Origin: a virus
DNA length: 31,774 nt
Direction: 5' to 3' (one strand)
Virus record (IMG/VR): IMGVR_UViG_3300023223_000302
Span: 1-31,774 of that record
Shown: in pieces, positions 10,318-27,798 of the stretch
Numbering within the stretch: the first letter of the stretch is position 1
How the letters are laid out: the number at the start of each line of letters is the position of its first letter
Notes under the pieces: generated by a model
Seen by the model: the letters and a program-made list of their open reading frames with translations, nothing else
Told to the model about the DNA's origin: nothing
The model's database searches: none
Program-made: the position numbers and the translations under genes

Positions 10318-10941
10318 TTATTTTAATATTTCGGCGTGCAACTTAAGTCCGTTAACCACCCTAACGTCGGTTTGATCGTTGATAGATTGTAAAATTATTT
10401 TTAATTTAGCTTTATTGTATGCTTTGCTAGCTTTTTCTGAAGTTGGATAATACCCAAGGCCTTTTTTTGTTCCTTTAATTTTAATTTGTGCCATATATTT
10501 CCCTGATGCCTTATTAAAATACACGCCTTGAGGGTGTCTTCCTCTAGCTGCCCTGCTATCACATAATAATCTGTTTAACGATAAACAAATGAAAGCGCAG
10601 CTTTCTGGTGAATAAACCTTATTGCTAGGTTTTATTACATCCTTGTCAAGCTCGAGTCCTTCCCAGTTTTGTTTTTTCATCCATATTTTAAATACTGAAA
10701 ACGTCAACCAATCATCACAAACCGAGCAACCTAAATAGGCTTGATACTTTTCTAGGTATTTTTTGCTATAGCAACGCATCAGCATGCCCGACCATCTAGA
10801 ATAAAAAGGACACACGGCTTTCTTTCCATTGATTGTTTTGCTAGTAACATAATTTGAATCATTGATGCCAACACCAAGAACCAATCTTCTTTTTGCTATC
10901 GATTTTTTATTTGCAGTTATTTCAACAAACTTATTTACCAT
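10318..10941 (-). CDS. HNH/AP2-domain protein, probable homing endonuclease
   Basis: 207 residues. The order VCPFYSRWSGMLMRCYS (43-59), CSVCDDWLTFSVFKIWM (72-88), LELDKDVIKPSNKVYSPESC (96-115) and GVYFNKASGKYMAQIKI (139-155) matches phage HNH-like DNA-binding proteins with a C-terminal AP2 domain. The AP2 part covers about residues 138-180 (GLGYYPTSEKASKAYNKAKL). Such proteins are usually mobile homing nucleases or their DNA-binding relatives. The gene overlaps the P-like gene by 11 bases and has only a weak ribosome site (GAAG). Cleavage activity cannot be judged from sequence alone. Confidence 0.72.
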   Translation of the reverse strand: MVNKFVEITANKKSIAKRRLVLGVGINDSNYVTSKTINGKKAVCPFYSRWSGMLMRCYSKKYLEKYQAYLGCSVCDDWLTFSVFKIWMKKQNWEGLELDKDVIKPSNKVYSPESCAFICLSLNRLLCDSRAARGRHPQGVYFNKASGKYMAQIKIKGTKKGLGYYPTSEKASKAYNKAKLKIILQSINDQTDVRVVNGLKLHAEILK

Positions 10942-23343: not shown

Positions 23344-24813
23344 ATGCCAGTATCAGACCAACACAAGCTATATCGTAAAAACATCAGACGATGGGAGCTT
23401 GTACGCGATTGCGTTGAAGGCAGCGAGGCTATAAAGTCGCGCGGCGGCGATACCACCGATGACACTCATGATAAGAATCAGGCGCGAAGCCTTCGCGGTA
23501 CACGTTATCTGCCGCAACCAAACCCGGATGATTTTAGCAATGAAAATCGCATACGCTATGAGCAATACAAATTGCGAGCTAACTTCGTTAACTTCGTCGG
23601 CCATACCAAAGACGGGTTCTTGGGTATGGTGTACCGTAAGCCGCCAGAAGTTGAATTAAATTCGGCCATTGATTTTCTAAATGATAATGCTGACGGGCAA
23701 GGGTTATCGCTGTTACAAATGCTTCAAGGCGTTACTAGTGATGTGCTAGAAGTTGGCAGACACGGCCTATTAACAGATTTCCCACCGAGCGCAGGCGGCA
23801 CACAAGCGCAAACGTCAGGCTTGAAGGCTAAAATCGTGCAATACGATGCCGAAGCTATTATCAACTGGCGCACCACTATCTTAAGCTCGCACACAGTGTT
23901 GTCTCTGGTTGTATTAGCTGAAGAAATTGAAAAAATACTGGATGATGGATTCAGCGTTGAAACTGTGATGGGCTATCGCGTCCTGAAGCTCAAGGATGGG
24001 ATTTATATTCAGCAGTTATTCGACGAGGACGAAAGCATAATCTCATTTGAAGACAGCGACGGCGTACTACAGACAGATCTAGTGCCTAAAAAGTCAGACG
24101 GATCGACATGGGACGAAATCCCTTTCACATTCGTCGGAGCAATTGACAACTCCCCAACACCAGACAAAGCGCCGCTTTATGACATGTCCGAAATTAACGT
24201 CGCACATTATCGCAATTCAGCAGACTTTGAAGAGTCCAGTTTCATCGTAGGGCAGCCCACGCCGGTATTGGCCGGGTTAACTCAAGCTTGGGTTGATGAT
24301 GTCATGAAGGGCGGCGTCATGCTTGGCAGCCGGTCGGCTGTATTGCTTCCCGAAAATGGCAGCGCTACACTTTTGCAAGCTGACGATAATCAAATGCCAT
24401 CGAAAGGTATGGAGATCAAAGAGCAGCAGATGATCAAGACTGGCGCAAAAGTCATTACCGATTCCACTGGAGTTGAAACTGCTGAAGCGGCAAAGCTTCG
24501 ATTTGCTGGCCAAAACTCTAAGCTTGCATTGACAATTAATAACGTCGAGCGAGCTATGATGCAAAGTTTTGCATGGGTAGGGGAATTCATGCCAGGTGGC
24601 AAAGTCGGTGAAAACGAGTTATCAATTAATCGCCAGTTCTATGAAGCAACAGTGAGCCCGCAATTGATTGTTGCCAATATGCAATTACTTGATCGCGGCG
24701 TTATAGCTAAAAGTGATTTACGTAATATGCAGCGCAAAAATGGACAAATTGAAGCGGATAGGACCGATGAAGATATCGACGCGGAAGTCGGTAATATAGA
24801 TCCCCTGGCATGA
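23344..24813 (+). CDS. Portal protein (DUF4055 type)
   Basis: 489 residues. The start VSDQHKLYRKNIRRWELVRD, then EGSEAIKSRGG, RYLPQP and YKLRANFVNFVGHTKDGFLG, is the typical beginning of DUF4055 proteins, now taken as portals. Further conserved parts are VLEVGRHGLLTDFP, ISFEDSDGV and AHYRNSADFEES. A clear stem-and-clip-like helix set is expected at about 350-450. AGAGG stands 7 bases upstream of the ATG. The stop overlaps the minor head gene (ATGA). Confidence 0.85.
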   Translation: MPVSDQHKLYRKNIRRWELVRDCVEGSEAIKSRGGDTTDDTHDKNQARSLRGTRYLPQPNPDDFSNENRIRYEQYKLRANFVNFVGHTKDGFLGMVYRKPPEVELNSAIDFLNDNADGQGLSLLQMLQGVTSDVLEVGRHGLLTDFPPSAGGTQAQTSGLKAKIVQYDAEAIINWRTTILSSHTVLSLVVLAEEIEKILDDGFSVETVMGYRVLKLKDGIYIQQLFDEDESIISFEDSDGVLQTDLVPKKSDGSTWDEIPFTFVGAIDNSPTPDKAPLYDMSEINVAHYRNSADFEESSFIVGQPTPVLAGLTQAWVDDVMKGGVMLGSRSAVLLPENGSATLLQADDNQMPSKGMEIKEQQMIKTGAKVITDSTGVETAEAAKLRFAGQNSKLALTINNVERAMMQSFAWVGEFMPGGKVGENELSINRQFYEATVSPQLIVANMQLLDRGVIAKSDLRNMQRKNGQIEADRTDEDIDAEVGNIDPLA

Positions 24814-25847
24814 GCATTGAAGATACGCTAATCAGGCGACAAATATTTTTAATACGTTTTGCTGGTGGCAGAGCCGCCGAAGCTGAAGACATGTTGTTAG
24901 CCATTCTTGAAAGGGCGCAAGCGAGATTCCTGCGCGAACCCACAGAAATACAATCGGCGCGCCTGGCCAGGTTAATTACTGATATTAGCATTCTAACCGA
25001 TCAAGGTTTCAGCGAGCTAAACGAAAAGATTTTAGCTGATGCGATTGCGCTGGCTGAAGACGAGGCGGCATTTTCGGCCAAGGCGCTAGGCCAAAACGTA
25101 ACAGTCGAGGTTGCGGTGCCCGCCCTACAACAGATAGAGCAGGCTGTCATTCGCACCGGTATGGACGCGCCCATCGGGCCTAATACAATAACGATGCGAG
25201 AAGCGCTCAATCAGTTCGGTGCTAAAAAATCTATCGAGATACAACGTGCAATTAGTGATGGAATCCTAGAAGGCAAGACAACGACTCAAATCGCGAAGGA
25301 TATCGGCGCACTATCTAACCGTCAGCGCCACCAAGTAAACGCGCTAACCAGAACAGCGTTAAATCATTCGGGCAGCCAAGCCCGCAAGGCATTCAGCAAA
25401 GAAAATGCCGAAATATTAGAAGGTGAAGAATGGGTTGCCACCTTGGACAACAGAACCACGTTGATTTGCGGCGGCAGAGATGGCAGAATATTCCCCGTTG
25501 GCAATGGCCCGTTTCCTCCTGCCCATTGGAATTGCCGAAGTTTACGGGTGCCAGTGATCAAAGAAGAGTTCGGCATTGATGTTTCGACCACTAAGCGGCC
25601 CGAAAAAGGCGCAAAGGGGCCCGGCCAGGTAACCGGTGCAACAAAATTCGATGGTTGGTTACGCCGGCAGCCGGCGGACTTTCAAGATGAGTATTTCAGT
25701 CAGTTCCCTGACGGCCTAGAAAAAGCGGCATTATTTCGCCGGGGTAAGCTAGGAATACAGCAATTCAGGGATGAAACTGGGCGAAACTTTACATTAGAAC
25801 AATTGCGAGCGCTAGAACCTCTCGCATTTGAAAAGGCTAATATTTAG
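24810..25847 (+). CDS. Minor head protein (Mu F/SPP1 gp7-like)
   Basis: 345 residues. The helical N-terminal half contains the phage head morphogenesis region (RHQVNALTRTALNHSGSQAR). WVATLDNRTTLICGGRDGRI followed by PPAHWNCRSLRVP is the Mu F-like C-terminal signature (D-x-R-T-x-x-x-C-x-x-x-D-G, PPxHxNCRC). The usual second Cys of CRC is Ser here. The protein is attached to the portal and may enter the cell with DNA. Coupled to the portal gene by ATGA. Confidence 0.82.
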   Translation: MSIEDTLIRRQIFLIRFAGGRAAEAEDMLLAILERAQARFLREPTEIQSARLARLITDISILTDQGFSELNEKILADAIALAEDEAAFSAKALGQNVTVEVAVPALQQIEQAVIRTGMDAPIGPNTITMREALNQFGAKKSIEIQRAISDGILEGKTTTQIAKDIGALSNRQRHQVNALTRTALNHSGSQARKAFSKENAEILEGEEWVATLDNRTTLICGGRDGRIFPVGNGPFPPAHWNCRSLRVPVIKEEFGIDVSTTKRPEKGAKGPGQVTGATKFDGWLRRQPADFQDEYFSQFPDGLEKAALFRRGKLGIQQFRDETGRNFTLEQLRALEPLAFEKANI

Positions 25848-25849
25848 AT

Positions 25850-26152
25850 TTAATAATACATATTCTTATTTGTATACTCTTGCCAGTCTGGGTGAATCTC
25901 GACGCCGAACATTGTATCCATATGGATAATTAATTCATGCAAAGGTTTGAATATGCCATCCCTTGCCATTTGAATGCAAAAATCAGGGTCCGGACTTGAG
26001 AATTCGCGACATAGAAAGTGATATTTTCCGGATAGAAATTTCGCAATTTCGATTGCCTCATCTTTATTAACTCGATACACCAAGGTTGCAATACACTTCC
26101 CGGCCAGCTGCTTTTCTTTTCTGAACTGTAATATTTTTTGTTGAATTTCCAT
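25850..26152 (-). CDS. Hypothetical protein of the reversed cassette
   Basis: 100 residues, not recognised. It has a basic helical start (MEIQQKILQFRKEKQLAGKC), a region like VNKDEAIEIAKFLSGKYHFL and an aromatic end. It is the last gene of the minus-strand cassette and ends 2 bases from the minor head gene. The ATG overlaps the previous stop (TAATG). Confidence 0.52.
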   Translation of the reverse strand: MEIQQKILQFRKEKQLAGKCIATLVYRVNKDEAIEIAKFLSGKYHFLCREFSSPDPDFCIQMARDGIFKPLHELIIHMDTMFGVEIHPDWQEYTNKNMYY

Positions 26153-26331
26153 TACTCACCCCAGGTAATTGTCATAAAAAATGAGTTAAACCCCATATCT
26201 TCGGCTTTAAACCCGTAAGTTGGCCTAATACCATCATTCAGATCGCCTACTGAGCATCCCAAATGAACATCTTCATTGTCATCGATCGTTGTCAAAGAAA
26301 TATTTGTTAAAGATTCATATGTTATTTTCAT
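26152..26331 (-). CDS. Small acidic protein of the reversed cassette
   Basis: 59 residues: MKITYESLTNISLTTIDDNE, then DVHLGCSVGDLNDGIRPTYG and MTITWGE. AGG lies 6 bases before the ATG. Beta-rich and acidic, with no membrane segment. Coupled to the next gene by TAATG. No family was recognised. Confidence 0.5.
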   Translation of the reverse strand: MKITYESLTNISLTTIDDNEDVHLGCSVGDLNDGIRPTYGFKAEDMGFNSFFMTITWGE

Positions 26332-26355
26332 TATTTACCTACTATTTTAGATTTC

Positions 26356-26372
26356 ATCTTAAAACTTAAGAT
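26356..26372. repeat. Perfect palindrome inside the reversed cassette
   Basis: ATCTTAA-AAC-TTAAGAT, seven-base arms. It lies in the 44-base gap between two cassette genes. It could be an operator; no T run follows on either strand. Confidence 0.4.
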
Positions 26373-26375
26373 CAG

Positions 26376-26792
26376 TTAGAATTTAACGCTAGTGAAAACC
26401 CATTTTATTCTGGTTAGAAGTGACGCGCCAAATGTATTTTTTTGAAAGCGTTTAAAAGAATTAGCAACTCTTTCGGCCTCGTTATGCCACCGACGAGATT
26501 CTGTTTTTAAGGAGCTTATTTTCTCTTCCTGCGATTTAGCGGTTACAGGGTTTTCAATGCAATAAAGATATTCCCAAACATTTCTTTCGACGGCAATATA
26601 ATGTTCTACGCCGTGATCGACTACTTTTTGAATAGGTAATGTTTGCTCCTCAATAAAACCCACTACAAACTCATCACTATAGGCTATTCTGGTTGCTGGC
26701 CCTGTATCCTGTGTTCGGTATTGAATATGATCGCGTCCGTTGTCGATCATGATGTCTTCATCTTTTAATTTTATTAACTTGACTCTTTTCAT
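26376..26792 (-). CDS. Hypothetical protein of the reversed cassette
   Basis: 138 residues, not recognised. A beta-rich N-terminal half contains GRDHIQYRTQDTGPATRIAY; the C-terminal half is helical with a coiled-coil-like EEKISSLKTESRRWHNEAER and a hydrophobic end (TRIKWVFTSVKF). The ATG overlaps the stop of the HTH gene (ATGA), so both are one unit. Confidence 0.52.
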   Translation of the reverse strand: MKRVKLIKLKDEDIMIDNGRDHIQYRTQDTGPATRIAYSDEFVVGFIEEQTLPIQKVVDHGVEHYIAVERNVWEYLYCIENPVTAKSQEEKISSLKTESRRWHNEAERVANSFKRFQKNTFGASLLTRIKWVFTSVKF

Positions 26793-26947
26793 TGTTTATC
26801 CTTTAACCCATCAATTAGTTTGTTTAATTTCTCAGGATTCTTAACTATCCATCGTCGATAAGTTCTAAGGCTGATATTTAAAGCCTCTAAACCCTGAGTT
26901 AGCGTGTAACCTTTTACTAATAATTTAGCTGTTGTTTTTTGTTGCAT
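26789..26947 (-). CDS. Small helix-turn-helix protein leading the reversed cassette
   Basis: 52 residues from ATG 26947, which has a perfect AGGAGG upstream. LLVKGYTLTQGLEALNISLR followed by TYRRWI is a helix-turn-helix (about residues 10-34), with the recognition helix at SLRTYRRW. It lies first in the cassette, next to an inverted repeat at 26974-26991, so it may control the cassette. No larger domain is fused to it. Confidence 0.6.
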   Translation of the reverse strand: MQQKTTAKLLVKGYTLTQGLEALNISLRTYRRWIVKNPEKLNKLIDGLKDKQ

Positions 26948-26973
26948 GGCGCCTCCTTGGCTAAATATGGCAC

Positions 26974-26991
26974 TGATTGATGTCACAATCA
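26974..26991. promoter_or_regulatory. Inverted repeat, candidate operator for the reversed cassette
   Basis: TGATTG-6 bases-CAATCA, 27 bases before the HTH start. On the minus strand a weak TGTGAC...TATTTA promoter may overlap it. Confidence 0.4.
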
Positions 26992-27031
26992 AGGGTTTTT
27001 ATCATTACTTTTATTAATAAACAAAAAGGTT

Positions 27032-27037
27032 TATAAT
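27032..27037 (+). promoter_or_regulatory. Consensus -10 box restarting head-gene transcription
   Basis: TATAAT, 50 bases before the scaffold gene, just after the reversed cassette. The -35 region is weak (TTTTAT at 17 bases). Confidence 0.45.
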
Positions 27038-27043
27038 ATCTCA

Positions 27044-27058
27044 GCCATCGGTGATGGC
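27044..27058 (+). other. Hairpin in the leader before the scaffold gene
   Basis: GCCATC-GGT-GATGGC, a six-pair stem with a three-base loop and no T run. It probably lies in the 5' leader of the head transcript. Confidence 0.35.
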
Positions 27059-27087
27059 GTGATTAGTGATCAAAAAAAGGTGATAAA

Positions 27088-27798
27088 ATGTTAATAAATA
27101 AAGATTGGTTATTCCGCGTGTACCTTGATGAAGCAAGCGATGATGGCGATAAGGGTGGCGGCTCTGGTGGCGAAGGCGATAAGGGCGGTGACAAGACATT
27201 CAGCCAAAAAGATATGGATGGATTGCAGAGCCAAATCGACGCGATGAAAACCAAAAATGATCAATTGCTCGGCGAGGTAAAGACCAACAAGCAGCAGCGC
27301 CGGGAAGCAGACGATGCGACACGAATTGCAAAAGAAGAAAAGGCCCGTAAAGACGGTGATTTTGAGCAGCTATTTAACTCGAGTGAAGAAAAAAATAAAG
27401 CAACACAAACTGAGCTTGATAGTTTGCGTAGCGGCATCGCCACAGAGAAGCGTAATATGTCAGCTATCAAGATGGCAGGTGAGTTGGCAGAAGGCGCTAA
27501 TGCCGAGCTGCTGAGTGAATTTATAGCACCGCGCTTGAAATATACTGATGAAGGCGTTAAAGTTCTTGATAGTAACGGGCAGTTGACTGTGTCGACTCTC
27601 GAAGATTTAAAAACTGAGTTCCAAGGTAATAGCCGATATGCCTCGCTATTAAAAGGGAATCAAGCAGGCGGGGGCGGTGCCAACGGCGGCAAAGGTAGCG
27701 GTGCTACAGATAAGACATTGACCAGAACAGAATTTGATGCGTTAAACCCGTCTAAAAAGATGGAATTCGCAAAATCTGGCGGCAGTGTAATTGACTAA
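27088..27798 (+). CDS. Head scaffolding protein
   Basis: 236 residues. A Gly/Asp/Lys-rich start (about 15-36) leads to a charged coiled coil (about 38-125; KDMDGLQSQIDAMKTKNDQL) and a compact C-terminal part with the helix-rich ending TEFDALNPSKKMEFAKSGG. Layout and place right before the capsid gene are those of phage scaffolds. AAAGG lies 7 bases before the ATG. Scaffolds guide prohead assembly and leave it afterwards. Confidence 0.75.
   Translation: MLINKDWLFRVYLDEASDDGDKGGGSGGEGDKGGDKTFSQKDMDGLQSQIDAMKTKNDQLLGEVKTNKQQRREADDATRIAKEEKARKDGDFEQLFNSSEEKNKATQTELDSLRSGIATEKRNMSAIKMAGELAEGANAELLSEFIAPRLKYTDEGVKVLDSNGQLTVSTLEDLKTEFQGNSRYASLLKGNQAGGGGANGGKGSGATDKTLTRTEFDALNPSKKMEFAKSGGSVID

Follow-up and report, generated by a model that had tools for sequence, protein, structure and literature searches.

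An antisense four-gene cassette with a small HTH protein between the minor head and scaffold genes of a marine phage, and its relatives at other gene junctions

Background

Morons are transcription units added between conserved phage genes, and in present-day usage they need not have a terminator of their own (PMC6316719). In SPP1, ORFs 8-10 lie between the minor head gene gp7 and the scaffold gene gp11 and are called moron genes (PMC6316719). In acr-aca operons, autorepression by Aca has been proven, with sites that overlap the core promoter (PMC9410906), and in Streptomyces the small HTH protein BldC sits on 9-bp direct repeats (PMC5859096). The stretch of DNA that we analysed, hereafter the window, comprises 31,774 nucleotides of the IMG/VR virus record IMGVR_UViG_3300023223_000302 and contains a cassette of four minus-strand genes between its minor head and scaffold genes. 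The features of the locus are as follows:

24810 to 25847, plus strand: minor head protein, left flank (Pfam Phage_Mu_F, E 3e-12; phrog_241)
25850 to 26152, minus strand: m100, cargo gene of 100 aa
26152 to 26331, minus strand: m59, 59 aa, acidic, member of a recurrent cargo family
26376 to 26792, minus strand: m138, cargo gene of 138 aa
26789 to 26947, minus strand: HTH gene, 52 aa counted from the ATG, proposed autoregulator of the cassette
26950 to 26957, minus strand: ribosome-binding site of the HTH gene (AGGAGG), read from the sequence
26959 to 26989, minus strand: cassette promoter (TTGATT, 17-bp spacer, CATATT), with the same architecture in 20 other cassettes
26981 to 26986 and 26968 to 26973, minus strand: direct-repeat boxes GTGACA and GTGCCA, within the cassette promoter
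27031 to 27087, plus strand: scaffold-gene leader, made up of a TATAAT box, a hairpin with covariation and TGATTAGTGATCA, outside the cassette and marking its outer edge
27088 to 27798, plus strand: head scaffold protein, right flank (phrog_206, E 1e-21)

The cassette is similar to a moron in that it is present in some phages and absent from others at a junction of conserved genes, is off-composition and has, as judged by sequence comparison, its own promoter, but it differs in comprising four genes with a dedicated regulator and in that promoter and regulator recur at many junctions in different phages. The strict original definition of a moron includes a terminator of its own, and no terminator-like site separates m100 from the stop codon of the minor head gene; on the minus strand the closest candidate, a weak stem of 5 bp, falls within the minor head gene and is of a kind found at chance frequency. 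The SPP1 segment occupies the same junction and is bracketed by transcriptional signals, although it also holds oriR, and no HTH protein of the window's family is reported there (PMC6316719).

As in acr-aca operons, a small HTH protein is encoded together with small cargo genes, the predicted sites fall inside the core promoter, and the unit is mobile and accessory (PMC9410906). However, Aca sites are inverted repeats whereas those of the window cassette are direct repeats, the HTH gene comes first or second in window-type operons whereas aca usually follows acr, and the window cassette has no known Acr. The HTH protein gave no Aca match in Pfam, NCBIfam or PDB sequences, which do not cover every Aca family, and a Foldseek search with its model gave no significant match, Aca1 being one of many insignificant ones (E 3.2). 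BldC shares with it the small size without a separate dimerisation domain, and the 9-bp direct repeats of BldC sites (PMC5859096) may have a counterpart in the commonest box spacing of the related cassettes, but BldC is winged, MerR-like and about 68 aa long, whereas the window HTH is modelled as all-helical, with four helices and no strand (AlphaFold2 mean pLDDT 83.7), and had no match to the MerR/BldC family in Pfam or PDB sequences. The best reading is that the cassette is acr-aca-like in its logic and BldC-like in its geometry, and a member of neither group. The literature searched, which gave partial coverage, held no description of this HTH family or its promoter.

Layout of the cassette and selection on its genes

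The placement of the cassette, reading against the minor head and scaffold genes on either side, had been described in the earlier note on this DNA, and the matches of the flanks to Phage_Mu_F and phrog_206 bear it out, as the sequence does for the perfect AGGAGG ahead of the HTH gene. That note had also taken all four genes to overlap; the four minus-strand genes are there, and the HTH gene overlaps m138 by 4 bp and m59 overlaps m100 by 1 bp, whereas a gap of 44 bp lies between m138 and m59; not all four overlap. The minor head stop codon is only 2 bp from the m100 end of the cassette. GC content falls to 35.8% in the cassette, compared with 49-50% in the head genes on either side.

Each of the four genes has at least one relative elsewhere, and comparison with these relatives gave pN 0.13 vs pS 0.71 for m100, 0.32 vs 0.73 for m138, 0.36 vs 0.79 for the HTH gene and, for m59, pN 0.25-0.30 (0.25 vs 0.77 as a pair). 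Thus, while silent sites are almost saturated (pS 0.59-0.79), pN remains at 0.13-0.36 in all four genes, which are under purifying selection at the protein level.

Presence and absence at the minor head-scaffold junction

Most relatives with the same head module carry no insert at this junction, the minor head gene ending about 70-220 bp before the scaffold gene begins to align (L004-L010, L012-L015, L022, L023, L028, L029, L032 and L036). The two relatives with the most similar minor head proteins, L002 (65%) and L021 (64%), each have a different antisense insert here, of five genes including one HTH relative in L002, and of a single unrelated gene in L021. HTH-type minus-strand genes are also found at the junction in the L003/L025 contig, and L026 has two other minus-strand genes, one of which encodes a Lar restriction-alleviation protein above the Pfam cut-off (L026:6611-7063), with no member of the tiny HTH family in that insert. 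The same minus-strand genes are therefore far from universal at this junction among the relatives compared. The earlier note had proposed a self-regulated moron, a proposal that is well supported by this polymorphism together with the conserved promoter of the cassette, its relatives at other sites and its low GC content.

Relatives of the cassette genes in other phages

Relatives of all four genes occur together between TerL and the minor head gene of another phage contig (L017/L031), whose minor head and portal proteins are only 29% and 27% identical to those of the window, indicating that the cargo travels as a set. The order there is m138, divergent from the HTH gene, followed by an extra 83-aa gene, m59 and m100. 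The m100 relative in L031 is 74-76% identical, and the only known relative of m138, 54% identical, adjoins the L031 HTH gene. A scan of the whole collection with the single m138 protein gave no match, and one with a two-row m138 alignment found only L031's contig; a genome scan with m100 gave no match, nor did searches of named phages with m100, m138, HTH and m59. Relatives of m59 are found in L030, L031 and L042 as well as in the L056 and L057 cassettes, where they follow the tiny HTH gene. In L042 (2453-3257) the m59 relative stands after a Cro/C1-type HTH gene and in L030 (3407-4278) after a Rha regulator, m59 thus occurring with different leading regulators.

Searches with the window HTH, in which SLRTYRRW (residues 26-33) forms the recognition helix, retrieved about 21 distinct relatives, and at least 22 cassettes carry the family (L061/L062 counted once). 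Eighteen of the 22 are antisense to neighbouring virion genes, the sense-oriented ones being L009, L031, L042 and L058 (two-sided binomial 0.004 for 18 vs 4, a value that ignores kinship and includes L056 and L057, read with one flank or an unnamed flank). The junctions concerned are:

between minor head and scaffold genes: window, L002, L003/L025, L064a, L065
alongside the minor head gene where the contig ends: L076
between TerL and portal genes: L061, L066
between portal and minor head genes: L063
after the MCP gene: L005, L006
adjoining connector genes: L056a, L057, L064b
adjoining the terminase small subunit gene: L067

The flanking portals include the unrelated DUF4055 and SU10 types, and the cassette therefore crosses phage groups. 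Taken together, the window cassette appears to be one of a widespread set of plug-in packets, each with what seems to be its own switch protein and switch sequence. Two contigs with an HTH cassette, and a third found later, were in a Colwellia bin, which hints at the hosts. Among 197 genomes of that bin's family the HTH was found in that bin only, and it is thus not a common chromosomal gene there. One cargo type of about 85-90 aa, with the motif KRNK..VW.K.YGKPF..R, recurs in L009 (4294-4557), L025 (220-480), L076 (4675-4929) and L077 (8470-8745).

The cassette promoter and its boxes

Upstream of the first gene, nearly all the cassettes share a portable sigma70-like promoter with a -35 element CTTG(A/T/C)A, about 17 bp of spacer and a -10 element TATA.T. 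It carries boxes of the form RTGHCA, repeated in direct orientation. In nearly all cassettes the boxes occupy the stretch from -35 to -10 and the start site, and where the set is complete the outermost ones are about 31 bp apart. The commonest spacing is 9 bp (11 of the 16 RTGHCA-type cassettes), compared with 13 bp as read in the window sequence. A profile built from 12 promoters matched only cassette starts in all fetched loci, including L005 (E 5e-4) and L067 (E 2e-8), which were outside the training set. When all viral contigs were searched for the box pattern alone, blind to the HTH gene, ten were returned; nine were already known to carry it, and the tenth, L076, was new and has an HTH cassette beside its minor head gene.

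The window promoter, TTGATTGTGACATCAATCAGTGCCATATT, has two boxes rather than the four-box layout, is below the profile threshold and was not listed by the consensus promoter scan. A pair of such boxes preceded by TTG and followed by TA should turn up 0.007 times in a window of this size and was found once, correctly placed and oriented, a figure to be taken as a guide and not as a blind test, since the pattern was drawn up after the other cassettes and the window site had been seen. No boxes could be recognised in L025.

Boxes and HTH proteins come in matching types. RTGHCA boxes go with R or K at HTH position 32 (window numbering) in 16 cassettes, and RTGCAA boxes with E or T in five; L064 and L056 each have one cassette of either type, each with its matching HTH. 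This pairing is a single change on the HTH tree; it indicates joint inheritance of promoter and HTH and agrees with recognition of the one by the other, but it is not repeated covariation. For the same reason we rejected as independent evidence a Fisher test of the association between box type and HTH type (5e-5).

Inverted repeats and the scaffold leader

The earlier note had drawn attention to an inverted repeat upstream of the HTH gene and to a second palindrome. Both exist (26974-26991, with 6-bp arms, and 26356-26372, with 7-bp arms), but such repeats are at chance level: 90 with 6-bp arms were observed in the whole window against 88 expected (10 against 5 in the cassette region), and 21 with 7-bp arms against 27 expected (2 against 1). 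The 6-bp repeat is not conserved in the other HTH cassettes, and the elements that are conserved upstream are the direct repeats GTGACA...GTGCCA, so that we rejected the palindromes as operators.

The TATAAT box with which the head genes were said to restart after the cassette is real, although it is not specific to the cassette. Together with a covarying hairpin (two-sided changes in 5 of 11 pairs among the relatives compared) and TGATTNGTGATCA, it precedes the scaffold gene in relatives with or without an insert, and hence belongs to an ancestral leader, immediately upstream of which the cassette landed; we rejected it as a part of the cassette. The leader may act as an internal late promoter, its 5′ hairpin having a stabilising effect.

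Proposed regulation and role of the cargo

The reading that we favour, and regard as fairly probable, is an accessory moron whose HTH protein would repress its own promoter through the direct repeats and whose cargo would act early on the host, most likely against its defences. On this reading the cassette entered precisely at the boundary of two late genes, in antisense and under an early-type sigma70 promoter of its own. Its HTH protein may then bind the direct repeats, RTGMCA boxes overlapping the promoter's spacer and -10 element, so that the cargo would be made in a pulse soon after entry and then shut off, presumably before antisense transcription into the minor head gene, 2 bp past m100, could harm head-gene expression. 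We infer repression because the boxes occupy the -35/-10 spacer and the start site, positions at which a bound protein would block the polymerase, as for Aca.

During that pulse m138, m59 and m100 would act on the host early in infection, with the countering of host defence as their likeliest single role. Searches of Pfam, PHROGs, PADLOC and NCBIfam assigned none of the three to a family, in agreement with the earlier note, which had recognised none of them. PDB sequence profiles with m100 and m138 gave matches at chance level only and none to solved Acr structures, and an AlphaFold2 model of m100 from two sequences was poor (pLDDT 53). An anti-defence role is nevertheless plausible, given that another antisense insert at the same junction, that of L026, encodes a Lar protein; the turnover at the junction and the early-type promoter also favour it. 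The Lar domain is absent from the window and was found only in L026 and, just below the cut-off, in L042.

It is also quite conceivable that the regulation is as described and that the cargo consists of host-takeover, membrane or physiology genes. Other early operons of these phages carry genes of these kinds, and sister cassettes encode YopX-like and small membrane proteins, the latter of the REVFCWYFKIN family (cassettes of L005, L061, L063, L064 and L066), as well as a protein that resembles the window's phrog_1273 member. However, an arms race would agree better, if only indirectly, with the quick turnover at a single junction and with the Lar protein of one antisense insert.

Direct repeats are also read by activators, and the HTH protein could activate its own promoter or serve as a timing switch for other phage genes. 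The divergent arrangement of HTH and m138 in L031, where a box overlaps the region common to both promoters, would agree with this, but we consider it unlikely, given that the position of the boxes in nearly all cassettes is typical of repression and that the profile had no match at any other promoter of the loci compared.

The tight operon of an HTH gene and small genes is reminiscent of type II toxin-antitoxin modules, and m138 has a sub-threshold match to DarG (E 0.026, 13.8 bits vs a cut-off of 250). That the cassette works in the lysogen as a toxin-antitoxin or superinfection-exclusion unit is nonetheless very improbable, since no toxin family was matched, the cargo varies freely around the HTH gene, and neither an integrase nor an S24 repressor was found in 14 records, which may be fragments. 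On the same 14 records we rejected the cassette as a lysogeny module, and superinfection exclusion, which the earlier note had allowed for, gained no positive support. That the minus-strand frames are spurious or remnants, as their small size and lack of a database family might suggest, has a negligible probability in the face of relatives for all four, strong selection against protein changes and a good ribosome-binding site on the HTH gene.

Returning to the autorepressed moron, a broader proposal is that promoter and repressor form an undescribed portable chassis, which would bring varied anti-defence genes, in antisense, into the late operons of marine phages that are unrelated to one another, with two box codes able to coexist in one genome without cross-talk and an HTH protein usable, like aca genes, as bait for new anti-defence proteins; we offer this tentatively, as somewhat doubtful. 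Accessory phage genes are usually found singly, whereas here one marker, an HTH protein of about 53 residues with a box promoter, flags at least 22 cassettes, mostly of small genes without known function, in phages with unrelated heads. Should the cargo prove to counter host defences, this marker would be a search handle comparable to aca genes. The paired HTH and box types could also serve as a small natural experiment on the reading of direct repeats by a minimal HTH protein.

Other insertions in the compared loci

In L014 (2613-3726) and L015 (4587-5685), as well as in L036 and L053, about 1 kb of additional sequence divides the minor head gene after residue 240/241. In L014 and L015 this sequence begins with a sub-threshold intein-like Hint domain (E 4e-4 in L014) and has, on the opposite strand and overlapping the intein frame, a DUF559/Vsr-like nuclease, in the manner of 'fractured genes' with split inteins. 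In L004 (4172-5026), an insert that encodes an HNH-type endonuclease on the other strand interrupts the TerL gene after residue 27. Finally, proteins with sub-threshold AP2 domains, like relatives of homing endonucleases, are encoded in the early region of the window (10318-10941) and beside an HTH cassette of L056 (6737-7339).
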